Positions 13,204 through 30,158 of a stretch of DNA of 64,000 nt are shown piece by piece. Under the pieces are notes generated by a model. The model worked only from the letters and a program-made list of their open reading frames with translations, did no database searches and was not told where the DNA came from. This stretch comes from Nitrospira tepida (GTDB lineage: Bacteria; Nitrospirota; Nitrospiria; Nitrospirales; Nitrospiraceae). Location of the stretch: positions 1,054,001-1,118,000 of the forward strand of contig NZ_OX365700.1 in NCBI RefSeq assembly GCF_947241125.1, given 5' to 3'. Positions within the stretch are counted from its first letter, which is position 1. Each line of letters begins with the position of its first letter. A program made the translations under genes and the position numbers.

Positions 13204-13450
13204 CCTGCAGTTCTGGCATCGTTCGTGAGCGCTCGCTGTTCCGGCTTTCGAAAGGATTTTCAGCAGCCTGCTCGCAGGAATTCTCACCAACCCTACGCGC
13301 CGCATCTTCACAGGTCCTCGATCCTTCGGGCGCTTTCCCGCTAACCACTTCCAACCGGCCCCGTATGTAGCGAGTTCATGGCCGGATAGGCCGCGGGCCG
13401 ATTTCTGGATACACCGCCCGGCTTCGCCATCTATCCCGACAAGTGGCATC

Positions 13451-13479
13451 TTGACAAAAGCGATTAAGGGACAGATATT
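13451..13479 (+). promoter_or_regulatory. Candidate promoter for the HNH gene
   Basis: TTGACA (13451-13456), a 17-base spacer and GATATT (13474-13479), 140 bases before the start, which leaves a fairly long leader. Confidence 0.4.
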
Positions 13480-13618
13480 GTGGCCGTTTCCAGCGGGGAT
13501 GCAGATAATCCAGACCGAAGTAGATCCGCGTTTATCGTATGAGATCGAGCCGGTCACTAGAGAGTTGGGCAGAGAGAGCACCCGCCCGTAGATTTCTACC
13601 ACCGTTCGGAGACGCATT

Positions 13619-14476
13619 ATGAAATCCAGCGCCAGTTCCTCACCTCGACCAGTAGTATTCGTTCTTGTTGGATGGGCGCGTCGATACGACGGAACCGAAG
13701 TAATAACCGGAAACCACGCATATCTCAAAAACCATCCAGAGGACAACTCAGAGGCCCAGGCCTTCGTCCGTCACAACGATGGCTATTATTACTGCACCGC
13801 TGGGAGCGGCGAACTTCATGAGCGACAGGCTGACATCGTGTACGTGGCACGCCATGACGGGAGTGATACGTACAAAGTGGTCGGACTCTACAAGCAGGCT
13901 GTAGTAACCGAAACCAGTCCCTGGACAACTGTTCGTACAAGATTCGCGAGGCTCATCCCTGTAAACAAGCGCCCTACGATTCCCAATTGGCCCTCCGGAC
14001 AAGGTGTGCGTCGGTGGGCTCGCCGGTTGCTCAGCACCGGGCGCACGCATCCCGGACTCTTGGCCATTTATCGCTCCCTGCGGTGGCCTCAACGCCCTTC
14101 CCGAAGGGAGTCCATAGATTCTGATCCAGAGCTTATAGCGTTCGAGGGACGGCAACGACACCTCTTTATCCTCCATCGCGTCCGCGAAGCCAAACTTCGA
14201 GCTGCTAAGATTCGGCAAGGACTCCGCGAAGGGAAGGGGCGCCTCAAGTGCCAAGTTCCGGGTTGCGGATTTGATTTCTTCCGGACCTATGGTGAGATCG
14301 GGCACAGATTTGCCATCGTTCACCATACGGTACCACTTGCAGCTTCCGCATCAGCTGGATCTCGATGGTCCCTAAGCGATCTAGCCATAGTCTGTGCGAA
14401 CTGCCACGTAATGATTCACCGCGGTGGCGCATGCCGTCCAATCAAGTCTCTTATCAAGAGGCAGCAGTCGCGGTGA
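13619..14476 (+). CDS. HNH endonuclease domain protein, solitary
   Basis: 285 residues. The C-terminal third is an HNH nuclease of the McrA-like zinc type: C211 and C216 with GFDFFRTYG, H235-H236 and PL at 239-240, then DLAIVCANCHVMIHR giving C259, C262, H263 and H267. Residues about 10-115 form a separate alpha/beta domain I cannot name; by architecture it could be a reader of DNA or modified bases. No methyltransferase or second restriction subunit is adjacent. It sits between an inverted-repeat element and a pseudogene and looks less GC-rich than the operons around it, suggesting acquisition by transfer. A modification-dependent defence nuclease is possible but unproven. Confidence 0.7.
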   Translation: MKSSASSSPRPVVFVLVGWARRYDGTEVITGNHAYLKNHPEDNSEAQAFVRHNDGYYYCTAGSGELHERQADIVYVARHDGSDTYKVVGLYKQAVVTETSPWTTVRTRFARLIPVNKRPTIPNWPSGQGVRRWARRLLSTGRTHPGLLAIYRSLRWPQRPSRRESIDSDPELIAFEGRQRHLFILHRVREAKLRAAKIRQGLREGKGRLKCQVPGCGFDFFRTYGEIGHRFAIVHHTVPLAASASAGSRWSLSDLAIVCANCHVMIHRGGACRPIKSLIKRQQSR

Positions 14477-14884
14477 TCGCTACCTAACCACGCGATGCGG
14501 CGGAACACTTCACAGTGAGCACACATCCGGATTCAGGGTCAGGCATGAGTATTGACTTACTGACCAACGGTACACTGTTGAAGGCCGAAAATGGATTCCG
14601 CCGCGTAAGTGAGCTGCCTGTTCGTGTACACGCGCCGGGGTATCGGCAGCCTGACCAGCTCAACCTGGGGGCGCGGTGCGCTGTCGGCGGCTCGGGCGAT
14701 CATCCTCATGATCTGCGGGGCCAGAAAAGGGGACATCGTAAATTCTCAAGGCCGAACAACGGATGTAATTGACCGGACCGGCGTTCCGCCTTTGCGTGGG
14801 TTGAAGTCTTTGCAGCCGGCCCGGCAATTGATCCGGCGCGTTACCCCGCCCAACGTCGAGCGTCCGGCTAGCGAGGGATAGGTC
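14477..14884. other. Intergenic stretch, no supported gene
   Basis: Short open frames exist but have no family resemblance or ribosome sites. Bases 14536-14557 match the 45.85-kb tandem repeat unit at 20 of 22 positions, so this is probably decayed repeat DNA. Confidence 0.5.
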
Positions 14885-15951
14885 CTGAAACATACGCGCA
14901 TCATCGTCACTCATTACGGCGGGCCGGATGCACTTCGGGTGGTTGAAGAAGAGTGTCCCGAGCCGAAGGACGGGGAAGTGCGGGTGAGAGTGCTGGCTGC
15001 GGGGGTCTGCCTGCCCGACCTCATGATGCGCGAGGGCGTTCACCCCGAGACGCCTCCTCTGCCCTTCACGCCAGGATGGGATCTGATCGGCGTGGTGGAT
15101 CGGCTCGGCCGAGGTGTTTTTGGAATCGAACCAGGCCAGATCGTTGCCGCGCTGCCGATCACCGGCGCGTATGCGGAGTTCGTCTGCCTGCCGCTACATG
15201 AACTGGTTCCAGTACCATCCGGGTTGGACCCGCCGAGGCTGTCAGCCTCGTATTGAACTATGTCACGGCTTACCAGATGCTACATCGTTCCGCTCGCGTC
15301 AGAGCGGGCCAGCGCGTGTTGATTCACGGTGCGGCAGGCGGGGTTGGCTCGGCACTCTTGCAGCTTGGGCGCCTCGCCGGGCTGGAGCTATATGGGACCT
15401 GTTCATTGCAAGGAGGGTCGGTCGTTTCCGACCTCGGGGGTATCCCGATTGACTACCAGCATCTCGACTTCGTGAAAGAAATTCACCGTCTCACGAGCGA
15501 GGGCGTGGACGTTGTCTTTGATAGCATCGGTGGCACCCATATCTGGCGTTCCCGCAAGGCTCTCCGCCCTGGCGGGAGGGTCGTGGCCTATGGTCTGACC
15601 GGTTCGCTATGTGGGGGCCGCTTGGCTTCAGGGCGTTCCGGGCATCGTCATCGATTTCGTGCAATCGCCATCTTCGGGCTGTACATTGCGGGCGGCTGGC
15701 TTCTCCCGGGCCGGAAACGGGTGGTGCCTTACAGCATTCAGTGGCTCAAACGGCTCAGACCGGCATTGTTTCGACAGGATTTGATCGCCCTGTTCGATCT
15801 CCTTCAACAGCGAAAGATCAAGCCGCTCATCGCGCAGCGACTTCCTCTTGCCGAAGCGAGACAGGCCCACGAGTTGCTCGGGATAGGAGGCATAACAGGC
15901 AAGATCGTGCTCGTGCGCAACGGGTCGTCGCCCAGATCCGGAGCGGCATAA
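14885..15951 (+). pseudogene. Zinc-type alcohol dehydrogenase/quinone oxidoreductase-like, frameshifted
   Basis: MDR-superfamily oxidoreductase in two frames. The first part (14885 to about 15231) reads THYGGPDALRVVEEE, then PGWDLIGVVDRLG; the second (about 15232-15951) continues with LNYVTAYQMLHRSARV, the NAD(P)-binding HGAAGGVGSALLQLG and FDSIGGTHIWRS. One base is missing near 15231 (GACCCGCCGAG where a further G would restore DPAEAVSLVLNYV). The natural start codon also appears lost: the expected Met position is CTG at 14885, two codons after a stop. Both defects point to a decayed gene rather than a sequencing slip, although a CTG start cannot be excluded. Confidence 0.75.
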
Positions 15952-16274
15952 CAATCGCGATTCCGGATTATGGGCCGGGTCTTGCAATCAAACACTAGCC
16001 CGGCGAGATTCCTGCCCCATAGCCCGTCCGCTCTGCCTCGAGATCCACGGCGCCACTCTCCTGTCACGAGTTGAGGCAATGTCCGACAACGCATCGTGCG
16101 AGACGACCAAGATCGCGGGGCGTGGGAGACGATTCCGAGCCACACGATCACACGGATTGGTTCGCTCTGTCATGGTATTGTCTGATGAACGATCCCTATC
16201 ATCTGTTGCTCGAATAGGAGAGAAGAAACCGGGAATCTTTTCAGCCGCTAGGCGGCGGCGAGCAGGCAAGGAGA
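15952..16274. other. Intergenic stretch, no supported gene
   Basis: Open frames on both strands here have no recognisable domain. A minus-strand stretch reading PRPAILVVSHDALS looks faintly coding and may be a gene fragment, but I cannot place it. Confidence 0.4.
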
Positions 16275-16517
16275 TTACGCCAGATTCAATGGTCTGGCGC
16301 AGAACACTTCGTCTTCGCGGAGGGCTTCGAGGGCGGAGGCTGGAACGATGGTGACGGCGATGGTGTCGCCCACAGCATTGAAGACTTCGATAGAATAGCT
16401 TTCTGTTCCATCCGCGGCAATGTGACGGTCCACCAGTTTGACGATATCGCCGCGTTTGAGCCGATGCTTCGGCAAATCGCACGTCAGCGCCACGTCAGTG
16501 TAAGGCTCAAACTTCAT
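16275..16517 (-). CDS. DUF4926 domain protein
   Basis: 80 residues starting MKFEPYTDVALTCDLPKH, with RLKRGDIVKLVDRH and SYSIEVFNAVGDTIAVTIV, the pattern of small DUF4926 proteins (an SH3-like beta fold resembling translation-factor KOW surfaces). Such proteins usually lie just downstream of a second small partner, sometimes in toxin-antitoxin-like pairs. Here the partner position is held by a 51-residue remnant next to an insertion sequence. The start is MKFEP; the longer frame has no support. Confidence 0.7.
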   Translation of the reverse strand: MKFEPYTDVALTCDLPKHRLKRGDIVKLVDRHIAADGTESYSIEVFNAVGDTIAVTIVPASALEALREDEVFCARPLNLA

Positions 16518-16553
16518 TGGAAATCTTGCCCCAGGGGCCAAAGGAAAATCACG

Positions 16554-16709
16554 TCATCCATGGTGAAACCGTTCTTCATCCTTCTCGCGTAGTTCGGTCA
16601 CGATGCTGGCCGCCAATTGTTGCCAGGCTTGCGCCACCGCCCGGCTGTCTTCGGAGTGCAGATGCCCAATGTTGTGGTAAACGAGGCGCTGGTCTACGAA
16701 AAATCGCAT
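16554..16709 (-). pseudogene. Probable C-terminal remnant of a gene cut by an IS200-type element
   Basis: 51 codons beginning RFFVDQRLVYHNIGHLHSED and ending in a charged tail. The frame runs on into the IS left end, so what is left is probably the 3' part of a longer gene once paired with the DUF4926 gene 36 bases downstream. A possible 5' part lies on the other side of the IS on the same strand (17520 down to about 17290, containing LNEFVNRPYAGG and PHEVPALIELN), but I cannot show that the two belong together. Function unknown. Confidence 0.4.
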
Positions 16710-16747
16710 TTGAGTGCCCCGCCCGGTAGGGCGGGGATGAAAAATGC

Positions 16748-16766
16748 GTGCTGCCGGAGGCAGCAC
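16748..16766 (+). promoter_or_regulatory. Hairpin before tnpA
   Basis: GTGCTGCC-GGA-GGCAGCAC gives an 8-bp perfect stem, 20 bases before the tnpA ATG. In IS200, a hairpin in the leader limits transposase translation; this one sits in the same place. Confidence 0.5.
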
Positions 16767-16785
16767 CGATTCGCTACAGGAGGGC

Positions 16786-17225
16786 ATGGCGGTCAAGCGA
16801 GCCAGCCACTGTGTGTATGATACCCGATACCATCTGGTATGGGCACCGAAGTATCGCAAGTGGGTCCTGCAGGGGGCGATTCGGCAACGGGTGAAAGACT
16901 TGTTTCAGGAGATCGCTGCGCATCATGGTTTTGAGATTGAGGAATTGGAGGTAGACGAGGTAGACAAAGATCATGTGCATCTGTTTCTGAGTTTCCCTCC
17001 GAGGTACTCGATTGGGAAAGTGGAGGGCTGTTCAAGGCGGTCAGTGCGAAGGAGATTCGGGGGGAATATCCTGAGGCGCGCAAGCAGCTGTGGGGGGGGG
17101 AGTTTTGGGAAGATGGCTATTTCGTCCGGACGGTGGGGGATAAGGTGACGGCGGAGGTGATCAAGAAGTACATTCGGTTTCATGAGGCGAAACGACACCG
17201 CGTTGAGCAATTGGACCTCTTCTGA
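16786..17225 (+). pseudogene. tnpA: IS200/IS605 transposase TnpA (Y1 HUH type), frameshifted
   Basis: The N-terminal half reads YDTRYHLVWAPKYRKWVL and carries the HUH motif in DHVHLFLSFPPRYSIGK. One base is missing near 17023; downstream the other frame resumes as LFKAVSAKEIRGEYPEARKQ, then FWEDGYFVRTVGDKVTAEVI, which holds the region of the catalytic Tyr, and ends EQLDLF. Start ATG is preceded by CAGGAGG. Restoring one base gives about 146 residues, normal for the family. There is no tnpB. Confidence 0.8.
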
Positions 17226-17249
17226 AAAGCCCCGCCCGGAAGGGCGGGG

Positions 17250-17541
17250 TTCTTTACTTGGGAAGCCTCGGCTTTCCTTAATCAAGTGCTCCGGTTCGAC
17301 CGCCCGAGGTTTTTCTGAAAACCCCGCTATCCGCAGCAATTCTCAGACTCCTCGGTTGACTAAAAAAGCGGTTCAATTCGATCAGCGCAGGCACCTCATG
17401 CGGCCCGCAACGGGGTAAATACTCCAATTGTTCAGGGCTTCCCCCCGCGTAGGGGCGATTGACAAACTCATTCAGGTTCCTTACAGATTCCCGGACGCCG
17501 TTGATCCCGTTCATCTTCATAACAGCGCAAGGAGCTGGTCC
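17250..17541. other. Intergenic region with a candidate promoter
   Basis: TTGACA (17459-17464), a 17-base spacer and TACAGA (17482-17487) precede the next gene by 55 bases and may drive the surface-polymer cluster. A minus-strand open frame (17520 to 17278) may be the 5' remnant of the gene split by the IS200-type element. Confidence 0.4.
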
Positions 17542-18843
17542 ATGCGAGTCATCATGCTGGCCGGTCTGTTTCTGCTCACGGTGCTTTCAACTCCGGTCCT
17601 GGCCTATCTGGATCCCGGATCCGGCAGCATGCTGGTGGCGGGATTGGTGGGCTTGTTGTCGAGCCTGCTGTTTTTCTTGAAGGGTCTGTATTACAAGGGC
17701 CTGCGAGGTTTCTTTCACAAGGTCGGCAAGCCGGTTCAAGAGGCGACCGCCGGGCAGGGGCTCGTGTTCTACTCGGAAGGGCGACAGTACTGGAACACGT
17801 TCCGCCCGCTCATCGACGAACTTGTCGGGCGAAATGAATCCTGCTTGTATTTGACTTCCGATGAACAAGATCCGGGACTCTTGTACTCGTCGGAACTGGT
17901 TCATGCCAAATATATCGGCGCCGGCACCAAGGCCTACGCACACCTGGCGATGCTGGAAGCCGCTGTCTGCGCCATGACCACCCCGGGCCTCGACGTCTTG
18001 CAGATCAAGCGGTCCAAGGGCGTGAAGCACTATGTATATCTCATTCATGCGCCCACCGATGTCGGCACCTACAAACAATATTCGTTCGACTACTTCGACT
18101 CGGTGTTCGTGAGCGGAGAGCATCAGATCCGGTCGCTCAGGAAACTGGAAGAATTGCGAGGGACCCCGCGGAAGGATCTCCGTAAAGTCGGCTGTCTCTA
18201 TTATGACGACATGCAACGACAGTTGCGGGAGCTCGACCCGGTCCCACGGAGCGAAACCCGGACCACCGTGCTCGTGGCGCCGACGTGGGGGCAGAACGGG
18301 CTCCTGAAAAGGTTGGGAACGCGGGTCCTTGCGCCTCTCCTGGACAAACAATGGACCATTATTCTGCGGCCTCACCCACAAACCTTTCTTTCTGAAAAAG
18401 ACCTGCTCGACAGCATCCGGGAGGAAGTGAGGAATCGTCCCAACCTGCTCTGGGATGACGATCCCGACCCTACCCAGTCCATGGCCGCCGCCGACGTGCT
18501 GATCTCGGATCTCTCCGGAATCGTGTTCGATTTCGCCTTCCTGTTCGAAAAACCGGTGATCACGCTGAAGTACGAGGTGAACAAGGTCGGGCAGGAGGCC
18601 TCCGATTTCCCCTGGGACTCCTGGGAACTGACGGTGCTCGATCGGGTCGGGGTGCGGATCGACGCGGACGACGTACAGCGATTGCCGGCGCTCATCGAAC
18701 AGGAGGTAGGGAACAAGGAACGAGGCCCGGCCATTCGTCGCCTGCGCGAGGAGTCGGTGGTCAACTTCGGCTCCGCGGCCAAAGACGCGGTCAACGAATT
18801 GCTGCGTATTCGAAGCGACTTCAGAAGTCGAGCGGTCGCCTAG
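17542..18843 (+). CDS. CDP-glycerol glycerophosphotransferase family protein
   Basis: 433 residues. Residues 1-21 are a signal-like hydrophobic segment. YLDPGSGS follows (22-29), then a second hydrophobic helix (about 33-52) and a basic KGLYYKGLRGFF stretch. The C-terminal half is a TagB/TagF-type glycosyltransferase-like fold: VAPTWGQNGLL (about 250), RPHPQTF (about 276), and SDLSGIVFDFAFLFEKPVI (about 323), where the acidic/Ser site binds CDP-glycerol in teichoic acid enzymes. In a Gram-negative setting it may add glycerol-phosphate-like units to a surface glycan. AAGGAG precedes the ATG. It heads a same-strand cluster with a methyltransferase, a YidC-like protein and a sulfatase-superfamily protein. 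Confidence 0.8.
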   Translation: MRVIMLAGLFLLTVLSTPVLAYLDPGSGSMLVAGLVGLLSSLLFFLKGLYYKGLRGFFHKVGKPVQEATAGQGLVFYSEGRQYWNTFRPLIDELVGRNESCLYLTSDEQDPGLLYSSELVHAKYIGAGTKAYAHLAMLEAAVCAMTTPGLDVLQIKRSKGVKHYVYLIHAPTDVGTYKQYSFDYFDSVFVSGEHQIRSLRKLEELRGTPRKDLRKVGCLYYDDMQRQLRELDPVPRSETRTTVLVAPTWGQNGLLKRLGTRVLAPLLDKQWTIILRPHPQTFLSEKDLLDSIREEVRNRPNLLWDDDPDPTQSMAAADVLISDLSGIVFDFAFLFEKPVITLKYEVNKVGQEASDFPWDSWELTVLDRVGVRIDADDVQRLPALIEQEVGNKERGPAIRRLREESVVNFGSAAKDAVNELLRIRSDFRSRAVA

Positions 18844-18913
18844 TCTGATCGTCATCGGGGCATGATCCGCTTCTCGATGTGGTCGGCCCCTCAGCATGGA
18901 AGAGGACTCAGTC

Positions 18914-19735
18914 ATGGCCTGGTCCAAGCCGCCGGTCTCAATGATCAGCAGAAATCAAGATCATGCGCCTGTGCTGTCGGACTACGTCCAGAAACATAAG
19001 GTGATGAGTTCCAAGACGGTCGTGCTCGACCTGTTGTGGCGAGGCAAGAAACAGTTCGCGTTTACGGTCAATGAGCATGTCTTCAATCCGATCGGGAGCA
19101 TCGTCGGGCATAAGCTCGTGGACCTGGTGCTGTCCGAAACGATCGACGTGGCCGGCAAGAGCGTCGTTGATCTCGGCTGCGGCAGCGGCGTGATCGGTCT
19201 GTGCGCCATTACCAGGAAGGCCAAGAAGGTCCTCTTTACCGACATCAATTCCCATATCGACGGCATTCAACGGCATCCGTTGTATCGGAAATGCGATGAA
19301 TGGCAGGTGCAGGATGTGTTGGCCAAGGTGCCGGATACGAGTTACGATCTCGTGCTCGTCCTGCCTCCATGGATGGTCGTTCAAGAGGACCGTCAGATTG
19401 CCAGCGACACGTTTGAGTCGGGGATTATGAGACCGGCGAATCTCTACATGAAGATCTTGGCCGATTCCGGCCGCGTGCTGAAGCCGGGCGGGCAGCTCGT
19501 GATCTGGCTGCGGACTCCGCTCGCGGCGTTTGACTCCTTCCTCGACTGTCTGGCGGCGGCCGCGCCTCAGTTCGACCTGGCATCCGCCGCCTTGCTCGCC
19601 CACGGCATTGAATCCTCCATCTGTCTCGACCACGAACCATCGCTGATGGGACGCTGGCTGTACAAACTCCAAAAGGGCGGCGTGGCCAACGACGGGCTTT
19701 GGACGATGCTGTCGTTGACAAAGGCAAAAGGCTAG
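18914..19735 (+). CDS. Class I SAM-dependent methyltransferase
   Basis: 273 residues (an ATG six codons upstream at 18896 is an alternative start). Motif I is VVDLGCGSGVIGL (about residues 84-96) and motif IV is VLVLPPW (about 145-151), the place where small-molecule or protein N-methyltransferases of the MTS/HemK group have NPPY. LKPGGQLVIWLR follows. The N-terminal 60 residues resemble the substrate lobe of PrmC-like enzymes. The substrate is unknown; its position within the polymer cluster suggests modification of a surface-polymer precursor or of an enzyme of the cluster. Confidence 0.8.
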   Translation: MAWSKPPVSMISRNQDHAPVLSDYVQKHKVMSSKTVVLDLLWRGKKQFAFTVNEHVFNPIGSIVGHKLVDLVLSETIDVAGKSVVDLGCGSGVIGLCAITRKAKKVLFTDINSHIDGIQRHPLYRKCDEWQVQDVLAKVPDTSYDLVLVLPPWMVVQEDRQIASDTFESGIMRPANLYMKILADSGRVLKPGGQLVIWLRTPLAAFDSFLDCLAAAAPQFDLASAALLAHGIESSICLDHEPSLMGRWLYKLQKGGVANDGLWTMLSLTKAKG

Positions 19736-19782
19736 GCGCAGCATGGCGGGCGCTCTCTTGCCCGAAGCGATTCAGTAGCGGC

Positions 19783-20514
19783 ATGGACATTCTGTATCAG
19801 ATTTTCATCCTCCCGATCGAAGCCGTGATGCACATGATCCTGTCGTCGAGCTATGCGGCGACCGGCAGCTACGGCCTTTCGATCTTTCTGCTCAGTCTGC
19901 TCATCAACGCAAGCCTGCTTCCCTTGTTCCATCTGGCTGAACGTTGGCAGGAAGCCGAACGCCAGGTCCAGAAGTTTCTCAAGCCCAAGCTGAGGGAGTT
20001 TCGGGAGGCCTTTTCGGGGGCCGAGCGGCACGCGATGGTTCAGACGCTGTACCGGCAGGTGGGCTATCACCCGATGTATGCGATGCGAAGCAGCGTCGGG
20101 CTGTTCCTGCAACTGCCCTTTTGGATCGCCGCGTATCAACTGCTTTCACACTATCAACCATTGAATGGCGCCTCTTTCCTGGCCTTCGACAACCTCGGCA
20201 AACCGGATGGTCTGCTCTGGGGCGAGAATGTGCTTCCGTTCATCATGACCGCGCTGAACCTGGCTGCCGCTTTCGTGTACACGAAGAGCCTCAGTCGAGC
20301 CGATCAGATCCAGCCCGTGCTGCTCGCCGTGCTGTTTCTCGTGTTGTTGTATGGCTCCCCCGCCGGCCTTCTCCTCTATTGGACGTTCAATAGTTTGTTC
20401 TCTCTCCTCCGTATTGCGTGGCTCAGCCGCGCGCAACAAAGGATCGCCCGCCAGCAGATCCGATTATCCCACCATCACGGAAGCTATCCTCAGCACAAGC
20501 AGGCTTCGTTGTGA
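19783..20514 (+). CDS. YidC/Oxa1-like membrane protein, atypical
   Basis: 243 residues with the YidC2 core: GLSIFLLSLLINASLLPL (first core helix, about 31-48), an amphipathic charged hairpin (50-90), LYRQVGYHPMYAMRSSVGLF where YidC has its NP-x-GC segment, LQLPFWIAAYQLL, and SPAGLLLYWTFNSLFSLL at the end. The groove Arg of YidC (in the IVR-x-x-x-x-PL motif; E. coli R366) aligns with Asn42. No large periplasmic domain. A separate housekeeping yidC would normally sit beside rnpA/rpmH, so this looks like a specialised paralogue. Its 3' end overlaps the next gene by 4 bases (GTGA). About three quarters identical to the N-terminal module of the fusion gene at 23473. Confidence 0.85.
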   Translation: MDILYQIFILPIEAVMHMILSSSYAATGSYGLSIFLLSLLINASLLPLFHLAERWQEAERQVQKFLKPKLREFREAFSGAERHAMVQTLYRQVGYHPMYAMRSSVGLFLQLPFWIAAYQLLSHYQPLNGASFLAFDNLGKPDGLLWGENVLPFIMTALNLAAAFVYTKSLSRADQIQPVLLAVLFLVLLYGSPAGLLLYWTFNSLFSLLRIAWLSRAQQRIARQQIRLSHHHGSYPQHKQASL

Positions 20515-22742
20515 ACCAGGTTGGCGGAACGGATCAACTCGACAGTACGAGCCAATCCGGCCTCGGACGAATAGCAGACGACCACGGTCGAAAGGGGATC
20601 CACTTTCTTGACCTCCCATTGGGGCACAGCCTCGTGCTCTTTCTTGTTATCGTCGCTCTTCATGCGGGCATGCTGTCAGGCTGGTTCGCGTCCGATGATG
20701 GAACCCGGCCGGCCATCATCCTGGGCATCGGCGCGAGTATCGTCCTTCTTGCCTATCTCTGCTTGGCATTCTCGCTGAACACCCGTCCTGCGCCGAAGCG
20801 AGATTTGCGACAACCATTCAACGTGGCATTGGTCTGGCTGTCGTTTGCAGCCATTGTCCTTGTTGATGGCGCGTGGCTTTCCCACGCCTATCCGAATTTG
20901 CACCCGGCGAAGACGCTCGGGGGCATTTTCCTGCTGCTCCCGTTCTTGCTGTTCGCTTCCCCGCTATGTGGCGCCATGCCGGCCGTGAGAAACATGCCGG
21001 AAAGCCATTGGCTGTACCTCATCAGTACGTCGCTGAGCGCCTTTGTCGTGTTTATTGCCAACCCGATAGGTCTCTACGTGTCGTCAAACGAGGATTTCGT
21101 CGGCGGCGTCTACAAGGTCGCCGGTACCTTGCTCGCCTTGTTTGGGGCCGCCTTCCTCGCGCTCACAGCTCTGTACCTGCTCCTGGACAAGCCGGCGAGA
21201 AACGGGCTGACGCTGTTGTCCGTCTTTTCAGCGGTCAGTGTGATGGTCTACTCGTCGATAGGGCTGAAGCGTGCCGGACTCATGACCCATTTCATTCTGC
21301 ATATCCCCGAAGGATTGGTGCTGGCAAGCTATGAAATCGTCGCCGAGATAGCCGCTTTGCTCGTGCTGTTTGGCGCGGCCAGCTACGCGACGATACGATA
21401 TCGACAGGAAGTGACGTATGTGGTCGGCGCGATGCTGGCGACTTCCCTGGCAGTCACTGCGGTGGATATGCACGGCGCGGAGAACAACGCCGCCGCGGCC
21501 AAAGCCTTCCCCGCCGATCACGCCGATATCATCGGGTTTTCACGTGAGCGAAATGTCTTAATTCTCATGCTCGACGGATTTCCGGGCGGACTGCTGAAGA
21601 CCATCATGGCCGAAGTGCCGGATGTATTGAGGGAGTTTCAGGGATTCACATGGTATCCCAATACGTTGTCAGCGGGTTTTGAGACCATGACCGGGATCGC
21701 GGTCTTGGCTGGAGGGCCGAAGTATAGCGCCCAGGAAATAAACAGTCGGAATTATGAGACCGTGGGAAGCGCGATCAATGAGGCGTACGGCGTCTACGTC
21801 GACGCGTTTGCCCCCAAGGGCTATCAGGTCACCTATGTGAATCCGGCTTTTTATAAGTGTGAGGGAGCGGACAAGCGGATCCATTGCATTGATTCGACTC
21901 TGCCTTACGGGGTTTATTACCGCGATAAGGAAGAGCCGGAGGCCCCTCTGTTGCAAGGAGACTCCCATGTGCCGATTCTTCTCGCGATGGTGAGCCTGCT
22001 CAAGGCTTCTCCGTTTATTCTGAAATCCCGGATCTACGACAATGAGAACTATCTTGGCGCCAATGCGTTGGCACAAAAGAGTGCGATCTTGAATACGACC
22101 AAGGTGATGGAGGGCTGGGGCTTTCTGCGCATGCTCGCCCGCGAGAGCCATGCCGACAGCACATCGAAAACCTTTAAGTTTATTCAGTTGAATCTGCCTC
22201 ATGGGCCGAACGCCTTGAATCACGAGTGTAAATTGAGGCCGGAAACGGCCACCATGCTCACCGAATCGGTCTGCGCTCTGAAAGCGGTGGGTGCGCTCTT
22301 AACCTGGATGAGAGAAGTCGGCATATACGACGTGACCAAGATTGTGGTGGTGTCCGACCACGGGTGGCATATCGATAATCCCATGTTTGCGCCTGGGTTT
22401 GAGAAAGTGTTCCCGCAATTGGATGGATTCTTTGCCTACGTGCCCGGCCATGTGCAGCCTCTCCTGCTCGTGAAGGATTTTGACGCGAAGGGGGATTTCC
22501 GTCGGGCGGATACCTTCCTTTCCAATGCCGACGTGCCAGCAATAGTCTGTGGCGCCGAACAGGGATGCCGAGACATAGGCCCCGATCCCATTGCCAACAG
22601 CGTGGGACCGAGGAAGCTCTATTTCACCTATGCGAGTTGGCCCCGGGGGTTTATCAGAAAACAAAAACAATATGACATCAAGGCGATTTTTGAAGTACGG
22701 GATAGCATCTTTGCTCCGGAGAATTGGACGAGGATCAAATAG
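20511..22742 (+). CDS. Membrane sulfatase/alkaline-phosphatase superfamily protein
   Basis: 743 residues with a GTG start overlapping the yidC-like stop. Residues about 45-320 contain around eight hydrophobic helices. The C-terminal extracytoplasmic domain starts with the metal site NVLILMLDGFPGG (about 347) and contains VVVSDHGWHI (about 612-621), as in sulfatases and LTA-synthase-type phosphoglycerol transferases. SAGFETMTGIAVLAGG may hold the nucleophile Thr. In this superfamily a membrane anchor with this domain usually means transfer or hydrolysis of phospho- or sulfo-groups on lipids or surface glycans. Coupled translation with the YidC-like protein implies a joint function. Confidence 0.8.
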   Translation: MNQVGGTDQLDSTSQSGLGRIADDHGRKGIHFLDLPLGHSLVLFLVIVALHAGMLSGWFASDDGTRPAIILGIGASIVLLAYLCLAFSLNTRPAPKRDLRQPFNVALVWLSFAAIVLVDGAWLSHAYPNLHPAKTLGGIFLLLPFLLFASPLCGAMPAVRNMPESHWLYLISTSLSAFVVFIANPIGLYVSSNEDFVGGVYKVAGTLLALFGAAFLALTALYLLLDKPARNGLTLLSVFSAVSVMVYSSIGLKRAGLMTHFILHIPEGLVLASYEIVAEIAALLVLFGAASYATIRYRQEVTYVVGAMLATSLAVTAVDMHGAENNAAAAKAFPADHADIIGFSRERNVLILMLDGFPGGLLKTIMAEVPDVLREFQGFTWYPNTLSAGFETMTGIAVLAGGPKYSAQEINSRNYETVGSAINEAYGVYVDAFAPKGYQVTYVNPAFYKCEGADKRIHCIDSTLPYGVYYRDKEEPEAPLLQGDSHVPILLAMVSLLKASPFILKSRIYDNENYLGANALAQKSAILNTTKVMEGWGFLRMLARESHADSTSKTFKFIQLNLPHGPNALNHECKLRPETATMLTESVCALKAVGALLTWMREVGIYDVTKIVVVSDHGWHIDNPMFAPGFEKVFPQLDGFFAYVPGHVQPLLLVKDFDAKGDFRRADTFLSNADVPAIVCGAEQGCRDIGPDPIANSVGPRKLYFTYASWPRGFIRKQKQYDIKAIFEVRDSIFAPENWTRIK

Positions 22743-23472
22743 CGAGTGGGCCATGTGACCGGGTATCGGCCGGCGGCGGGGATAGTCCGCTTCCGATGCC
22801 TCGATCACCTCCCGAGCCTCGGCAGGTGACAGGGCCTGACGGCCAATCAAACCTACCCAATCGGCCGTCTGACCTGTTCCCGTTTCCTCAGGTCGTCAAC
22901 AGCAGTCACTGCCGCCACAGAGCCGCGTGTCCGTTTCCTTGTGGAAGTTGAGACGGCCAGGACCGCCGCACCTTCAGTTCCCCCCTTCAGCCGCCATATT
23001 CTCCGCTCTCGGTTGACCCAGCGAGCTGGTCCTGGATGCGCGCGTCCACTCGCCCGATGTCGAACGCGCTGAGCACCTCGGTCTCATTCAACCAGGGATT
23101 TCCCCAGCCTGCGTATTCGTCGAGAGTGATATTCTTGCCGAACCCAGGAAGATATTCCGGGTCAGATCGACACGCAAGAATTGCCCCGTGCGCGTGGTGA
23201 TTCTACTCCAGTGAGAGGTCCCCGCCTGGTAGGGGGGAAGACGAGGTTCAGCGCTTTGCGCTGGACAGCCGCAGCTTGCGTTCTGAGAGCGCCACGTTCG
23301 GAAGGGGTGAGCATCTACCACCTGCTCTGGCGCAGTTACACGAGTGTGATTTCCCCGGGGTGAGCCGGAAGCCCAACGGCGGACTCTGGATGATTCGGTC
23401 TTGACAAGATGGAAAGATTACGGGCACCCGCGGTCCCTCCCCCTGGAGCAACCGACGCAACTTGAAAGCGGC
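22743..23472. other. Intergenic region between the two YidC/sulfatase units
   Basis: About 730 bases without an intact gene. It holds a probable gene remnant on the minus strand (22987-23203). A TTGACA at 23402-23407 has no convincing -10. The downstream fusion gene has no obvious Shine-Dalgarno. Confidence 0.5.
22987..23203 (-). pseudogene. Unidentified gene remnant
   Basis: The minus strand reads a coding-like C-terminus: PEYLPGFGKNITLDEYAG, then WGNPWLNETEVLSAFDIGRV and a stop at 22987-22989. Just upstream, another frame carries SRITTRTGQFLRVDLTRN, and the two would join across a one-base shift near 23155. I do not recognise the family. It lies between two duplicated units, so it may be a relic of the gene that stood there before or during the duplication. 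Confidence 0.35.
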
Positions 23473-25971
23473 ATGGACGTCCTGTACCACCTACTCATCC
23501 TCCCCATTGAAAGCGCCATGGAGGTCATTCTGTCATGGCTCTATGCCGCGACCGGCAGCTATGGCCTTGCGATTTTCCTTCTCAGTCTGCTCATCAACGT
23601 GAGTCTTCTCCCGCTGTTTCAGCTAGCCGAACGCTGGCAGGAGGCTGAACGCCAGGCCCAGAGGGTTCTCAAGCCAAAATTGAAGGAGTTTCGCCAGGCT
23701 TTTTCGGGCGCGGAACGGCACGCGATGATCCAGACGTTGTATCGGCAGATGGACTATCACCCCATCTATGCGATGCGCAGCAGCATCGGCCTCTTCCTTC
23801 AGTTGCCCTTCTGGATCGCCGCCTATCAACTCCTGAGTCGGTATGAGCCGCTGCAGGGCGCCTCCTTCCTGATCCTGGACGATCTGGGCGAGCCGGACCG
23901 TCTGCTGTGGGGCGCGAACCTGCTTCCCTTCGTCATGACGGGGCTGAATGTGGCGGCCGCGTTCGCCTATACTAAAACCCTCAACCGTGTGGAACAAATC
24001 CAGCCGCTGGTGCTCGCGGCAGTGTTTCTCGTCTTGCTGTACCCCGCCCCGTCCGGTCTTCTTCTGTATTGGACCTTCAACAGCCTCTTCTCCCTGCTGA
24101 GGATCGTCGCCTACATGCCAAGCGAAGGGAGATTCTCAGGGCTCGTCGGGACCGCGTGCGCGGAGGCCGCGCAAGGTCGGGAACGTTGGCCGGGCCGATC
24201 CGTAGGGGAGGGCTTTCGCCCTCCGATGCCGAGAGCGTGGCTCCCGGACCGCCGAACGATCTTGGAAAGCCCCTACCTGTTTGCCCTATTGGCCGGCCTC
24301 TGGCCGATCGTGTTCTATGTGAGCAACAACTGGTTCATGGTCGAGACGTCGAAGATTCCGCTCATCGTCATGGCGGTCTCCGCGCTCTGCGGCCTGTCGT
24401 TGAGCCTGTGGTACCTCGTGGTCGCCCGTGTCGTTTGCAGCGGCGATGATCGTGAAAGGCCGCACACGGCCCTGAGGAGTCTGGTCTTTCTGGCGGTGGT
24501 GATGATGGCGTACCTGCTCAGACGAACGCTCATGCCGATGGCGGGAAACAATGCGGCCGTTTTTCTTATTGGGGTGTTCTTCATGGCATCGGCCGTGGGG
24601 TGGTTGGCTCCGAGGGTGCAGCTTGCGCGTTTGAACGTAATGCTGGCGGCCATGGTTCTGGTGCACGTCGTGATGGGCGTCAACTCGGTGATCGCCTCGA
24701 AATCCGGCCCGATGGTGCTGTTCGATCAAGAGGACAGCGGGGAACGTCAGGCCCTGTATGCCAAAGTCAGGTTCGCCCGGACGCCCAATGTGTATTACAT
24801 CGTGCCGGATGCCTATCCCAATGCCGAAGGGCTGAAAACGGTATTCGGCCTTGACCCGGGCGAGTTCTACGAGCGGCTGAAGGCACAAGGGTTTGCGATC
24901 TATCCCTCTGCTTTGAGCAACTATATGTCGACCCTCGCCTCGATGAGTTCCATCTTGGGCATGGACCACCATTATTATCGCGGGGGCATCGGCAACTTTG
25001 AGTTCCTGAACGCCAGGCAATTTATCGTAAGCGAGCAGAATCCCGTCGTGAAGATCTTTCGGAACAATGGATACCAGGTCCATTATGTCCATGAGACGGA
25101 CTACCTGTTTTGGAATGGGTGTTTGGTCGACTCGTGCGTTCCCAGCGGGGGCTGGGGGGAGTTCAGGGATATTCTGCTCGCACCCAGCCTGAATCTCTTG
25201 CCGGTGTTTGGGGGTGCGGCGCCATCAGCCGGAACAGGCCGGATCGGAGAGAGTCTCGAGGATCTCAAGCAGACGCGCCCGGCCTTTCTAGACAGGGTTC
25301 GAGCGCACATCGAGGCAATGTCACGGGAGGAGACGCCTCACTTCACCTATATTCACGGGAGCAGGCCGGGCCACAGCGTCGCGGGCGAACAAACGGCGGA
25401 GCAGTTGGCGGGTTTCCGCGACGAGTTTCCCGAACGGGTCCGACTCGCCAATGACGAAATCGTGAACTTTGTTGAGCAGATCCTGACGCATGATCCGAAC
25501 TCGCTGATTATCGTGAATGCCGACCATGGCGGGTGGGGCTACGGCAACTTCAATTACACGAAGGAGGACATCCTCGATGATGTCCCCGATGAACTGCTGA
25601 CTCTGGACCATCTCGGGGCGCTGCTGGCGATCCGGTGGCCGGATAATGGCTCGCCGCAGCATGCCATCGACATCCGAACGAACGTGAACGTCTTTCCACA
25701 CGTGTTCGCGTATCTCAGCGACAGCCGCGACATTCTCAAGTTCAATGCGCGCGACGACGGCTACCTCGCCAGGGGATGGGGCGTCAACCAAACGTTGCGA
25801 CTGGCGATGGAAGACGGAGCCATCCTGGCGCGCTTGCGCGAGCCCGAGCAGCGCCAGAAGATTCCTCCTCGACGCACCAGCCGAATCGCCAGGTCGGTTG
25901 CCGTAGAGTCGCAGCGTCCTCTACACGACGTATCCACCGACGGCCAACAATCGGAGCAGGAAGGCGGTTGA
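23473..25971 (+). CDS. Fusion of YidC/Oxa1-like module and membrane sulfatase-superfamily module
   Basis: 832 residues. Residues 1-235 are a YidC2-like module (GLAIFLLSLLINVSLLPL, LFLQLPFWIAAYQLLS, APSGLLLYWTFNSLF), again with Asn42 where YidC has its groove Arg. Residues about 236-275 are a Gly/Arg/Pro-rich linker whose DNA contains a 7-bp hairpin (24207-24224). Residues about 278-430 form five or so membrane helices. About 438-800 is a sulfatase-like domain with NVYYIVPDAYPNAEG, the substrate-side TYIHGSRPGHS (about 627) and VNADHGGWGYGN (about 681). The same two functions are separate, overlapping genes at 19783 and 20511, so this is a natural fusion of an interacting pair. The ATG matches the start of the paralogue. 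Confidence 0.85.
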   Translation: MDVLYHLLILPIESAMEVILSWLYAATGSYGLAIFLLSLLINVSLLPLFQLAERWQEAERQAQRVLKPKLKEFRQAFSGAERHAMIQTLYRQMDYHPIYAMRSSIGLFLQLPFWIAAYQLLSRYEPLQGASFLILDDLGEPDRLLWGANLLPFVMTGLNVAAAFAYTKTLNRVEQIQPLVLAAVFLVLLYPAPSGLLLYWTFNSLFSLLRIVAYMPSEGRFSGLVGTACAEAAQGRERWPGRSVGEGFRPPMPRAWLPDRRTILESPYLFALLAGLWPIVFYVSNNWFMVETSKIPLIVMAVSALCGLSLSLWYLVVARVVCSGDDRERPHTALRSLVFLAVVMMAYLLRRTLMPMAGNNAAVFLIGVFFMASAVGWLAPRVQLARLNVMLAAMVLVHVVMGVNSVIASKSGPMVLFDQEDSGERQALYAKVRFARTPNVYYIVPDAYPNAEGLKTVFGLDPGEFYERLKAQGFAIYPSALSNYMSTLASMSSILGMDHHYYRGGIGNFEFLNARQFIVSEQNPVVKIFRNNGYQVHYVHETDYLFWNGCLVDSCVPSGGWGEFRDILLAPSLNLLPVFGGAAPSAGTGRIGESLEDLKQTRPAFLDRVRAHIEAMSREETPHFTYIHGSRPGHSVAGEQTAEQLAGFRDEFPERVRLANDEIVNFVEQILTHDPNSLIIVNADHGGWGYGNFNYTKEDILDDVPDELLTLDHLGALLAIRWPDNGSPQHAIDIRTNVNVFPHVFAYLSDSRDILKFNARDDGYLARGWGVNQTLRLAMEDGAILARLREPEQRQKIPPRRTSRIARSVAVESQRPLHDVSTDGQQSEQEGG

Positions 25972-26271
25972 CGGGCAGAACGGGGCAGCCTGATGGTCGT
26001 CAGGTGGCTCGACGGGCCGGCCCCGCGACCGGCCGTCGTGCCCTGGCCGGACTATACGATCTGCTCGCCAACGGCATCGTGCGACGAAGCCTTGACGACC
26101 ACCGTGTAACTAGAGGTTAGTAACTAGGGGTCTGGTCTTGCAAGCACACTTCGAGGAAGCGAACGCCGTCCACAGGTCATTCTCCACCTCGATATTCTGA
26201 CCCCTGGCTCTCCGATATCAGCTTCCTTCTCAACTACGGGGCTTCGCGCCTGGCTCCATCTGTGGTTCCCC
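25972..26271. repeat. Intergenic region with REP-like repeats
   Basis: AGGGGTCTG (26126-26134) and CTGACCCCT (26197-26205) are inverted with one mismatch, the ends seen in REP-like remnants. GTAACTAG occurs twice (near 26106 and 26120). A CCTGA/TCAGG hairpin sits near 25991-26007. No gene seen. Confidence 0.4.
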
Positions 26272-29200
26272 TCACCAGCCGCTTGGCGCGAGAAGATAGT
26301 CGAAGTCGGCCTTCGTCAGCACGCCCTGCCCGGCGCGGCGGACCGCGCCGCCCATGACCGCGTCGTAGAGCTCCAGCTTGCGTTGTTTGAGCGCCATCAT
26401 CTTTTCCTCGATGCTGTGGCGCATCAGAATCCGCACGACTGACACGGCGCGCTGTTGCCCGATCCGGTGCGCGCGGTCCGAGGCTTGGTTCTCGACCGCC
26501 GGATTCCACCAGGGGTCCAGATGAAAGACGTAGGTCGCTTTGGTCAGGTTCAAGCCCTGTCCTCCCGCCTTGAGGCTGAGCAGAAACACCCCCGGCCGCT
26601 CGCCGGTTTGAAAGGCCTTCACGCGGCCCTTGCGTGCGGCTGCCGCGGTGGACCCATCGAGCCGGTGGTACGGCAGTTCGTGCCGGACGCAGGCTTCCTG
26701 TACGAGATCGAGAAAGCCGGTGAACTGTGAAAACACGAGCGCGCTGTGGGCCTCGTCCAGCAAGACCTGCAGCCGCTCCATCAGAAAATTGAGCTTGGGC
26801 GAGGGTTCGTCGGCGCGGTGCGTCAGCAGGCGAGGCGACAAACAGACCTGGCGCAACTTGAGGATCGCCGTCAGCGCGATGAACTGCGCCTGGCCGGAGG
26901 TTTTGGTCCGGTAGGCGTCGTCGATCGTGGAGCGGACTTGGGCGACCGTGTGCTGATAGAGCGCCTTTTGCCGTTCGGTGAGGTCGAGAAAGACTTCGCT
27001 TTCCGTCTTGGGCGGCAAGTCGTGGAGGATCTGGGCCTTCGTCCGCCGCAGAATGAAAGGCCTCGTCCGGTGAAGCAGGCGGGTCAGCGTACGTTCCTCG
27101 ACACGTTTGATCTCCCGCTTGAACCGATCGTATTCCCCGAGGAGGCCGGGCAGACAGAGATCGATCACCGAGAAGTACTCGCCCAGGTGATTCTCCAGCG
27201 GAGTTCCGGTCAGCGCGAGCTTGAAGCGTCCCTTGAGCCGTCGGACCGCGCCGGTCGTGTCCGATAGAATATTCTTCACCGCCTGCGCCTCATCGAAGAC
27301 GATGACGTGAAACGCCGTGCGTTCCAGAGTGTCGATGTCCCGGCGGACCAATCCATAGGTCGTGAGCACCACGTCGCCGTCCATGGCGTCGAGCGTCCGC
27401 TCGCTTCCACTGTAGACCTGGACCTTCAATCCAGGGGCGAACCGCGCGAGTTCCTGCTCCCAGTTGAACAGCAGGCTCGTCGGCACGACAACCAGGTGGG
27501 GCCCCCGCGCTCGCTCGGCGGGTTGGGTTCGCTCAGCCTGCTCGCCTGGTTCGACATGGACGGATGGCTTGACGCGCCCTCCCTGGATGGCGGCCAGCAG
27601 GCAGATGGCCTGGAGGGTTTTGCCCAGTCCCATGTCGTCGGCGAGGCAGGCGCCGAATCGGTGTTCGTAGAGAAACGCCAGCCAGGCATAGCCGTCCCGC
27701 TGATACGGGCGCAAGACCGCATGCAAGTCTGTTGGCAGGGGCGGCGTCGTGATTCGTGTGAACCCCATGAGCCGGCCGAGCAGGGCCTCGTCCTCGGCGG
27801 GAAGCGAGACCGTGATCCCCTGCTCGCGCAGGGCCAGCCAGTCGAGCACGTGGAGTCGGGGCACGCGTACGATCCGCGCCCGGTTCCGATCCGACGGCAC
27901 CTCCCCCGTGAGGCCGACGATCGCGCGCAGCCGCTCCAATGTGTCGCCATCCAGGACCTTCAGACCGCGCGCGGTCTTGACCAGTCCGCCTTGTCTCAGG
28001 GCCGTCAGCCATTCCGCCTCATTCAGCGCCAGACCGTCGCAGCGGATCTCCGGCCGAATTTCGAACCAATCGATGCCCGTTCCGTCTCGATCGCTCTGTT
28101 CCACCTGGACGGAACAGTCCCATCGAGAAGAGGTGAGCGGCTTGTCGTCGTACAACATCTCGATCCCGGCCGCCGTCAGCTTCTCCAAGAGGTCCGGCAA
28201 TCGCTGGAAGAGCAGTCCGCCGGGGATCGCCATCCGGTCGTAGTCCCGCATCTGGCGAAACGCGTCCGGGCCGAAGACCTCGAACGGGATCCGGTACAAC
28301 AAGGCTTCGCGGGCCTTGTCGATCGGCATGAGCGCCCAAGCCTCCCCGGTGACCTGGAGACGTACATCCGGCCTGGCATAGACGGACAGCCGGTGTTTCA
28401 ACCATCGCGCGGCTTCGTCGGTGACGGTCCGCGCCCAACACTCCCGCGCGAGGGCCGTCCTGATACGTTGGTTCCGCTCCTTGACCTCGCGCACCGAGAG
28501 GAGTGCGAAGAACATGGCGTAGAGCACGGCTTTTCGTTTCTGCGCGCGCAACGGACTCGAGACGTCGAAGCCTTGATTCAGCGCGGAGATGAACGCAAAG
28601 GTCGAAGCGCTGGGGGCGAATCGAAGGTTTCCGTGCCGGCATTCCGCCTGAAGGGTCCAGACCGCATCGGGTGAGTCCATTGGGCCGGGAGGAGGCGTGA
28701 GGATCAGGCGGTACGGGCACGCCTCTCCTTCCGGGGAAGATTCGAGGCCTTGAACCGGTCCCTGTTTTCCTCCCACCTTCAGCAGGAGGTCGTCCAAGGT
28801 CCCGTCGGCTCGCTTTTGAATCAGATCGATCTGTACGGACCGGAACGTATCCAACGGGACGGTGAACTCCGTCTCCTGGCCGGTGCCATGCCATCCGCCG
28901 TATCCGGAGCCGTCCGGCAACGTGACCGCGCGGGTTTCCTCCCCGAAATCATCATAGGGATCGAGGAACGGATCGATTTCGTTGAATCGTTGGTGGAGCG
29001 AACGGAACGAAGCCCACCCTCGTTCGTCCTCCAGATAGAGCAGCCGGCCGCCGCTCGGATCGATGACGAAGGTTCTGAAGCGCACGATCCGTTCGAGCGC
29101 CGCTCCGTCGGCGAGACAGAGGGCGCGAATCCATACCTTGCCATCGACCAGGTCCATCTCCGTCTTGGTTCGGCATGTGACCGACGGGGTCCATTGGAGC

Positions 29201-29967
29201 GGGATCGATTTTCGGCCCGACTCCAGAACGATCGGGTAGGGCTGGCGCTCGCGCCTCAGATAGCGCAGCAAGGGATCTTCGCCGAAGCCGGACGAAAACC
29301 ACGATGTATTCAGAAGGGGAACCAGTTCGGGCGGAAGGGCGGGGACCCATCCTCCGGTGAGCGGCGTACCGTTCCGGCGGATCAGAAGTTCCGGATAGGC
29401 CTGTCGCATGTCGATGACGATCTCGTAGGAGGGACGCTTGCAGGCAGGTTTTTTGGCGGCAGGGCCGACTAGGTGTGGATTAACCGGCTCGGTCGTCTCA
29501 GCATCGTCGCCAAGCAGCTCGTCCCGGAGCAAGGGCAAGCGGGTTTGCTGCCAGGTCGCCAGCCTGAATGTGTCCGGCGAGAGGAGGTTCTTGGTCGTGA
29601 AGCAGGCGCACAGGACATGTTTGCAGAGCCACTCGGGACTCCAGGCCGGGCAATCGCAGGAGGGGGCGAGAAACCCGTCGTCCAGGGAAAAGATGACTTC
29701 ATAGAGACGGGTTCCCAGCACTTCAGCCGTCAACGTGGCTCGATCCGGGCTCCATCGATACTGTTGAAGCCGTTGCCGCTCGTAATACCCGTAGCCTCGG
29801 AGGACGACGTCCTTCGGGGCCATCGTATAGATGTCGTTGGCCGATAAGGCGCGACACGCGGCGAGCAGCGGGGACGATTCGGAACCGGGGCGGGGGCGCA
29901 GGGGACGCGCCTCCTCTTCAGAGATGTGCGCTGTGCGCGGTTGGCTGGACGAGGGCTTTTTCCCCAT
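26272..29967 (-). CDS. SWIM zinc finger SNF2-family helicase
   Basis: 1231 residues. A SWIM zinc finger lies at C104, C106, C115 and H117 (CDCPAW...WLCKHVLC). A long middle region (about 130-720) of the bacterial SNF2-associated type follows. The ATPase has Walker A DDMGLGKTLQ (about 775), the DEAQ box VFDEAQAVKN (about 892) and LTGTPLENHLGE; the helicase C lobe has LVFSQFTGFLDLV, LDGSTAAAAR, SLKAGGQGLNLT and DRAHRIGQQ. These proteins translocate on DNA and remodel protein-DNA complexes; RapA-like transcription recycling is one known role. It stands alone, with about 190 bases to the divergent rpsF operon. Confidence 0.93.
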   Translation of the reverse strand: MGKKPSSSQPRTAHISEEEARPLRPRPGSESSPLLAACRALSANDIYTMAPKDVVLRGYGYYERQRLQQYRWSPDRATLTAEVLGTRLYEVIFSLDDGFLAPSCDCPAWSPEWLCKHVLCACFTTKNLLSPDTFRLATWQQTRLPLLRDELLGDDAETTEPVNPHLVGPAAKKPACKRPSYEIVIDMRQAYPELLIRRNGTPLTGGWVPALPPELVPLLNTSWFSSGFGEDPLLRYLRRERQPYPIVLESGRKSIPLQWTPSVTCRTKTEMDLVDGKVWIRALCLADGAALERIVRFRTFVIDPSGGRLLYLEDERGWASFRSLHQRFNEIDPFLDPYDDFGEETRAVTLPDGSGYGGWHGTGQETEFTVPLDTFRSVQIDLIQKRADGTLDDLLLKVGGKQGPVQGLESSPEGEACPYRLILTPPPGPMDSPDAVWTLQAECRHGNLRFAPSASTFAFISALNQGFDVSSPLRAQKRKAVLYAMFFALLSVREVKERNQRIRTALARECWARTVTDEAARWLKHRLSVYARPDVRLQVTGEAWALMPIDKAREALLYRIPFEVFGPDAFRQMRDYDRMAIPGGLLFQRLPDLLEKLTAAGIEMLYDDKPLTSSRWDCSVQVEQSDRDGTGIDWFEIRPEIRCDGLALNEAEWLTALRQGGLVKTARGLKVLDGDTLERLRAIVGLTGEVPSDRNRARIVRVPRLHVLDWLALREQGITVSLPAEDEALLGRLMGFTRITTPPLPTDLHAVLRPYQRDGYAWLAFLYEHRFGACLADDMGLGKTLQAICLLAAIQGGRVKPSVHVEPGEQAERTQPAERARGPHLVVVPTSLLFNWEQELARFAPGLKVQVYSGSERTLDAMDGDVVLTTYGLVRRDIDTLERTAFHVIVFDEAQAVKNILSDTTGAVRRLKGRFKLALTGTPLENHLGEYFSVIDLCLPGLLGEYDRFKREIKRVEERTLTRLLHRTRPFILRRTKAQILHDLPPKTESEVFLDLTERQKALYQHTVAQVRSTIDDAYRTKTSGQAQFIALTAILKLRQVCLSPRLLTHRADEPSPKLNFLMERLQVLLDEAHSALVFSQFTGFLDLVQEACVRHELPYHRLDGSTAAAARKGRVKAFQTGERPGVFLLSLKAGGQGLNLTKATYVFHLDPWWNPAVENQASDRAHRIGQQRAVSVVRILMRHSIEEKMMALKQRKLELYDAVMGGAVRRAGQGVLTKADFDYLLAPSGW

Positions 29968-30047
29968 CGGGCCACCCTATAAAAAAAGACTGTGTCCCAT
30001 CAAGATGCGGGAGAGAGAAATGAGCGAGCGGGGCCGCCGCCGCTTGT

Positions 30048-30077
30048 TTGACAGCCCGCGGAGGCCTGTGCTACCGT
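30048..30077 (+). promoter_or_regulatory. Promoter of the rpsF operon
   Basis: TTGACA (30048-30053), an 18-base spacer and an extended -10, TG-C-TACCGT (30069-30077), 82 bases before rpsF. A second TTGACA at 30079-30084 has no good -10. Confidence 0.5.
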
Positions 30078-30158
30078 CGCATGATTTTTTGACATAGCCG
30101 ATCCCTATCCCTCGCTCCACTCCATGAAGTGGGGCCATTTGTCCAGGAGGATGACTGC

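Follow-up and report, generated by a model that had tools for sequence, protein, structure and literature searches.

What is a relative of the membrane protein insertase YidC doing in one reading frame with an enzyme of the sulfatase superfamily? This question is raised by five genes at positions 17542-25971 (+ strand) of a 64,000-nucleotide stretch of the Nitrospira tepida genome (contig NZ_OX365700.1), herein referred to as the window; the genes together are referred to as the cassette. The source genome (G000) is complete, has a size of 4.73 Mb, and belongs to Nitrospirota. The cassette is read here, tentatively and with a confidence just short of even, as an envelope phosphopolymer modification system in which a YidC-derived domain is the built-in membrane partner of the enzymes.

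Composition of the Cassette

A previous sequence-only reading of the window had listed a glycerophosphotransferase-like gene, a methyltransferase gene, a YidC-like gene overlapping a membrane sulfatase-superfamily gene, and a single gene with the same two modules. All five genes were found in this order and on the same strand (Table 1). The frames of yidA and sulA overlap by GTGA (20511-20514), and because of this overlap the two genes are probably translationally coupled. The similarity of fusB to the YidC starts of yidA and of the relatives in two other genomes, G017 and G262, begins at the ATG at 23473, and this codon, rather than the TTG at 23401, is most likely the start. The fusB product consists of a YidC-like module (amino acids (aa) 1-211), about five transmembrane (TM) segments, and a sulfatase-fold domain (aa 419-775). 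The sulA product has about nine hydrophobic, presumably TM segments and a periplasmic domain, as judged by hydropathy.

Table 1. Positions of the cassette genes and of the insert carrying them; coordinates are those of the window.
Feature	Position	Strand	Evidence
TagF/CDP-glycerol-transferase-family gene (PF04464, GT-B-type)	17542-18843	+	Pfam Glyphos_transf 40.5 bits, cut-off 22.1
S-adenosylmethionine (SAM)-dependent methyltransferase (MTS/PrmC-like fold)	18896-19735	+	Pfam MTS 43.4 bits, cut-off 23
yidA, free-standing YidC-like 5-TM module	19783-20514	+	PF02096 60KD_IMP 75.3 bits, cut-off 35
sulA, membrane sulfatase-fold, phosphotransferase-like, type 1	20511-22742	+	Hydropathy; active-site alignment; no Pfam match
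fusB, YidC-like + sulfatase-fold type 2 fusion	23473-25971	+	60KD_IMP 68.9 bits; PF00884 Sulfatase 21.2 bits, cut-off 25
17.1-kb insert carrying the cassette	13021-30128		Lies between ychF (11929-13020) and rpsF (30129-30500)

Distribution of the Cassette

The YidC-like module was found in 3 of 396 Nitrospirota genomes (G000, G017, and G262). The transferase was found in the same three genomes and was absent in the 233 others among 236 Nitrospirales, so that the co-occurrence with the glycerophosphotransferase gene, which the sequence-only reading had proposed to count, is exact. Adjacency of the two modules was also conserved outside the window: of the four YidC-like copies, three are fused to a sulfatase module and the fourth overlaps one. 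The transferase, the methyltransferase, and the YidC-sulfatase gene or genes are neighbours in all three genomes. The carriers represent different genera; their cassette proteins are 63-77% identical, with all frames intact. In the rest of Nitrospirales, both sulfatase types are all but missing, and canonical YidCs are far off; this rules out an artefact of broad YidC or sulfatase families.

When contigs from 84,980 species were scanned with two peptide patterns, which may miss distant relatives, only the G017 and G262 relatives and two canonical YidCs were returned. Among the Pseudomonadota, the YidC-like module was found in none of 398 genomes, the six weak matches sitting in open frames of 554-571 aa, a canonical length; the transferase search returned one weak and unrelated PF04464 match. 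Nothing relevant was found in the plasmids and viral contigs searched. Four genomes (G013, G034, G037, and G049) have long open frames around YidC that were considered as further fusions; on reading, these frames proved to be canonical YidCs with lengths of about 560-600 aa.

A different arrangement was observed in G050 (L035 6824-11421) and G060 (L036 8135-11176), where a methyltransferase-like gene of 459-464 aa lies directly before one or two membrane sulfatase-fold genes free of any YidC part. This is an independent pairing of a methyltransferase with sulfatase-fold genes.

The YidC-Like Module

Both window copies pass the PF02096 cut-off, and all four cassette copies score below the TIGR03592 cut-off of 84.3 bits (79.6 for yidA, 72.7 for fusB, 72.0 and 76.4 for the others). 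The yidA product is devoid of the P1 domain. At the position of the strictly conserved positive residue of the hydrophilic groove (R366 in E. coli, Asn42 in yidA), alignment places Asn in all four cassette copies, and Lys (30) or Arg (6) in the 36 canonical cores. The motif NPxGGC of the canonical C1 loop is replaced by YAMRSS, again invariant in the four copies. In the tree, canonical YidCs are separated from the cassette modules by a branch of about 2.4 substitutions per site. These two replacements, both invariant, point to a changed job of the module but fall short of proof.

The fold itself is kept. In the model of the G017 fusion, the YidC part has a predicted local distance difference test (pLDDT) value of about 75; its top Foldseek matches are the YidCs of E. 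coli and B. halodurans, with TMt 0.73 and a root mean square deviation (rmsd) of 3.2 Å to the latter (3wo7). This is in line with the main rival explanation, in which the module is a dedicated insertase or chaperone acting in cis on a poorly inserting multi-TM sulfatase enzyme, with no catalytic or lipid role. Membrane proteins are the classical YidC substrates, and such a helper would account for fusion to two unrelated TM regions. Moreover, E. coli YidC with R366N remains functional as long as position 517 holds an aromatic or polar residue (PMC8920935). Since the cassette modules have Trp at the position equivalent to 517, loss of the groove charge alone does not exclude insertase activity. 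Against a cis-acting chaperone, G000 retains a separate, normal YidC (G000:C1:548591), covalent attachment is needless for a folding helper, and the joint change of the C1 motif and the groove charge suggests an altered job. Enzymes of the LtaS or EptA type are not known to need a YidC-like partner. On balance, the explanation is considered rather unlikely, while being the strongest of the competitors.

The Transferase and the Methyltransferase

The transferase is a separate protein of 433 aa with an N-terminal membrane hairpin, AYLDPGSGSMLV, and is 63-66% identical to its counterparts in G017 and G262. Two of its motifs, H169 (HAPTD) and R276-P-H278-P, are invariant across the three cassettes; their histidines were tentatively assigned as TagF-like catalytic residues, by motif only. 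A weak match was found to the Cps3D polymerase (8qoy), a Gram-negative capsule polymerase. The methyltransferase is 68-75% identical to those of the two other cassettes by alignment.

The presence of a PF04464 transferase together with LtaS-like enzymes would fit a teichoic-acid-like poly(glycerol phosphate) polymer, and Gram-negative TagF-like capsule polymerases are known (PMC5974469). The sequence-only reading had proposed a polymer of specifically this phosphoglycerol type. This part of it is not supported. No glycerol-3-phosphate cytidylyltransferase (TagD) was found above the cut-off in G000, G017, or G262 (TIGR01518, best score 48 bits, cut-off 165.4), and hexose-phosphate is also transferred by the TagF-like domain family (PMC5974469). 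Both the lack of a TagD match and the variety of donors accepted by TagF-like domains weaken the case for phosphoglycerol. In addition, a phosphonopyruvate decarboxylase gene in the G262 cluster (see Genomic Setting) makes other activated groups possible. The phosphoglycerol nature of the product, as far as these genes tell, is unproven, and a poly(glycerol phosphate) polymer is regarded as improbable.

The Sulfatase-Fold Modules

Formylglycine sulfatases have Cys or Ser at the nucleophile position. In the cassette, sequence alignment places metal and nucleophile residues at D446, T487, and D684-H685 of fusB and at D355, T392, and D616-H617 of sulA; the G017 and G262 relatives retain the equivalent Thr, metal Asp, and Asp-His, again by sequence alignment and not by superposition. 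A Thr nucleophile with a metal Asp or Glu and an Asp-His pair is the residue set of LtaS and EptA (PMC7576196). By Pfam (PF00884, cut-off 25), the fusB domain falls short of the Sulfatase family and its G262 relative reaches 35.3 bits; no match was obtained for sulA and the G017 relative. The type 1 (sulA) module was assigned to the superfamily by sequence alignment only, and a sequence search of PDB gave no significant match for the sulfatase parts. For the model of fusB aa 419-775, the best Foldseek match is LtaS (2w5r, E 5.7e-5). In VIA-align, the same domain gives YejM as the top match (Z 14.3), with LtaS/LtaP, MCR-1, EptC, and sulfatases near-tied (Z 12-14); for LtaS, YejM, MCR-1, and EptC, the values span 12.2-14.3. 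The predicted topology, a YidC core with its C-terminus inside followed by 5 or about 9 TM segments, places the catalytic domain outside the cytoplasm. The sequence-only reading, which took these for membrane proteins of the sulfatase superfamily and referred to LTA (lipoteichoic acid)-synthase-like enzymes, is supported in that the modules retain the active site (Thr/Asp/Asp-His) of phosphotransferases of the LtaS/EptA type. Both types are probably LtaS/EptA-like periplasmic phosphotransferases.

The YejM match, together with the layout of five TM segments and a periplasmic domain common to YejM and fusB, raises another explanation, namely that the sulfatase modules are YejM/PbgA-like sensors or regulators of envelope synthesis and that the YidC-like module helps to present a lipid ligand. 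However, both types have conserved the Thr and the Asp-His metal pair, which active enzymes, LtaS among them, typically possess, and YejM is not singled out among the near-tied matches. The cassette is also sporadic and linked to a transferase, not to lipid A regulation. A sensory role is judged quite improbable, more so than a poly(glycerol phosphate) product.

Re-Use of the YidC-Like Module

The sequence-only reading took yidA-sulA and fusB for a duplicated unit. At the level of folds, the two modules are indeed the same in both; simple duplication, in contrast, fails. The YidC modules of yidA and fusB are 77% identical and are mutual closest relatives (support 0.96), with a synonymous divergence (dS) of 1.18, a nonsynonymous divergence (dN) of 0.136, and a dN/dS of about 0.12; dS to the G017 copy is at least 2.5. 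The sulfatase modules of sulA and fusB share only about 26% identity, in an alignment that covers part of each module. The sulA type, with about 9 TM segments, has its counterpart in the C-terminal part of the G017 YidC fusion (969 aa; 54% identity), and the fusB type, with about 5 TM segments, is 44% identical, outside the YidC part, to the G262 fusion (777 aa). One unit duplicated in tandem is ruled out by the two sulfatase types. The YidC module has thus been combined with two sulfatase types, and its duplication or homogenisation in the lineage of the window came after the divergence of these types. As the YidC copies are closest kin with a low dN/dS while their sulfatase partners split long before, the module has been re-used under purifying selection and is not decaying.

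Genomic Setting

The cassette is horizontally acquired or moving. The spacing between ychF and rpsF is about 95-150 bp in G006 and G015, 6.6 kb in G001, and 17.1 kb in the window. The GC content is 56-60% over 13-26 kb of the window and 62-64% outside. In addition to the cassette, the insert holds an IS200-like remnant, an HNH gene, a broken zinc-dependent dehydrogenase gene, and an SNF2 helicase gene.

Several observations concern the insert itself. The ychF-rpsF interval, empty in G006 and G015 and filled in G001 and the window, resembles an insertion hotspot in this family. The IS200-like transposase gene (16716-17249; Y1_Tnp, 67 bits) has an apparent frameshift near 17020-17150. Two almost identical hairpins, GCCCCGCCCGGTAGGGCGGGG and GCCCCGCCCGGAAGGGCGGGG, lie on either side of the gene, and part of a similar hairpin is present around 23210-23240, between sulA and fusB. 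The dehydrogenase/quinone reductase gene (14939-15951) is split into two frames and is probably a pseudogene.

A chance origin, in which the cassette would be part of a recently inserted and decaying island with fusions of no functional meaning, fits the sporadic distribution, the IS200-like remnant, and the broken dehydrogenase gene, and is nevertheless hardly credible given the same gene set in three genomes of different genera at the above identities, with intact frames, purifying selection, and conserved catalytic residues.

In G262, the cassette sits in a large cluster with glycosyltransferase genes, asparagine synthase genes, RmlC- and epimerase-like genes, and a Wzm/Wzt-type (ABC-2) exporter; genes of this cluster were named by inspection of translations, unless a family search is given. 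A phosphonopyruvate decarboxylase gene (L049 4167-5315; 412 bits, cut-off 312) is located no more than 0.1 kb from the cassette methyltransferase gene, and a phosphonate-bearing glycan is a possible product of the cluster. Each of the six Nitrospirales genomes checked has a phosphoenolpyruvate (PEP) mutase domain within a long open frame (540-585 aa), and four of these domains score above the family cut-off (L090-L095; L095 corresponds to G000:C1:1013535-1014344). A cassette-specific phosphonate link was ruled out, since PEP mutase also occurs in relatives that have no cassette; the capacity for phosphonates is common and cassette-independent.

Proposed Function of the Cassette

In the favoured reading, that of a phosphopolymer modification system, the TagF-like enzyme and the methyltransferase would build or cap a phosphate-containing glycan on the cytoplasmic side. 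On the periplasmic side, the sulfatase-fold domains would, by means of their Thr nucleophile and metal, take a phospho-alcohol group off a lipid donor and attach it to this glycan. The YidC-derived 5-TM domain would no longer be a general insertase and would serve as a membrane partner built into the phosphotransferases. In the most speculative step, its polar groove would flip the lipid donor, or a lipid-linked acceptor, or present it to the active site in the periplasm. Lipid scrambling via the protein-inserting groove is known, in vitro and in simulation, for YidC, Oxa1, Get1, and other insertases (PMC10491306), and because of this a YidC domain on a lipid-using enzyme could flip or present that lipid. 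The reading as a whole draws support from the constant joining of the YidC-like module to one or the other sulfatase type, the linked transferase, the retained phosphotransferase-type residues, the LtaS match, the predicted topology, the polysaccharide cluster in G262, and the separate canonical YidC of G000. That a YidC-fold domain was recruited in this manner, from protein insertion to a lipid-flipping or lipid-presenting groove wired to extracytoplasmic phosphotransferases of a surface polymer, is a more doubtful proposition than the general reading of the cassette, and on our analysis clearly less likely than not.

Several results weigh against the favoured reading. The AlphaFold models of the YidC-sulfatase proteins have a mean pLDDT of 47-48 (48 for fusB) and are too weak to show a contact between the two modules. 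In two of the three genomes, the window and G017, the cassette stands alone, with no adjoining polysaccharide genes. With three known carrier genomes, conservation is shallow in sampling. The Trp at the position equivalent to residue 517 and the absence of TagD matches, both described above, belong to the same side.

If the YidC-derived domain acts on lipids and not on proteins, the cassette would offer a natural, genetically isolated test of lipid scrambling (PMC10491306) as a selectable function. Such a role would be new for the Oxa1 superfamily in bacteria, as would this means of supplying lipid-linked substrates across the membrane. For the LtaS/EptA class of envelope phosphotransferases, it would provide a previously undescribed membrane partner, and for Nitrospira-type bacteria, an uncharacterised phosphate-bearing surface polymer.

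Comparison With Known Systems

No described system pairing YidC with an enzyme of the sulfatase/alkaline phosphatase superfamily was found in the literature searched, in agreement with the sequence-only reading. The component families are known, and it is the YidC-sulfatase architecture that appears to be undescribed in that literature.

With the YidC/Oxa1/Alb3 insertases, the cassette module has in common the five-TM core fold and the match to PF02096. It differs from them in the Asn in place of Lys or Arg, the lack of P1, the altered C1 motif, the TIGR03592 score below the cut-off, and the invariable joining to a sulfatase-fold module. The cassette transferase and TagF-like PF04464 transferases, such as Cps3D, have in common a C-terminal donor-site region with the RPHP and SDxSGxxFDF motifs. 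Unlike these polymerases, the cassette enzyme is a separate protein with an N-terminal membrane hairpin and not a multidomain one, and it is encoded in a genome with no TagD above the cut-off.

LtaS/LtaP and EptA/EptC/MCR resemble the cassette enzymes in their membrane-anchored extracytoplasmic domain of the alkaline phosphatase superfamily, with a Thr nucleophile, a metal Asp, and an Asp-His pair. In structural alignments, however, the cassette modules are only about 7-15% identical to them and have a YidC-derived domain in front; type 1 additionally has about 9 TM segments and belongs to no Pfam family. YejM/PbgA, the top structural match, is similar to fusB in combining five TM segments with a periplasmic sulfatase-like domain, whereas it has no YidC module and has not been described in such a cassette.

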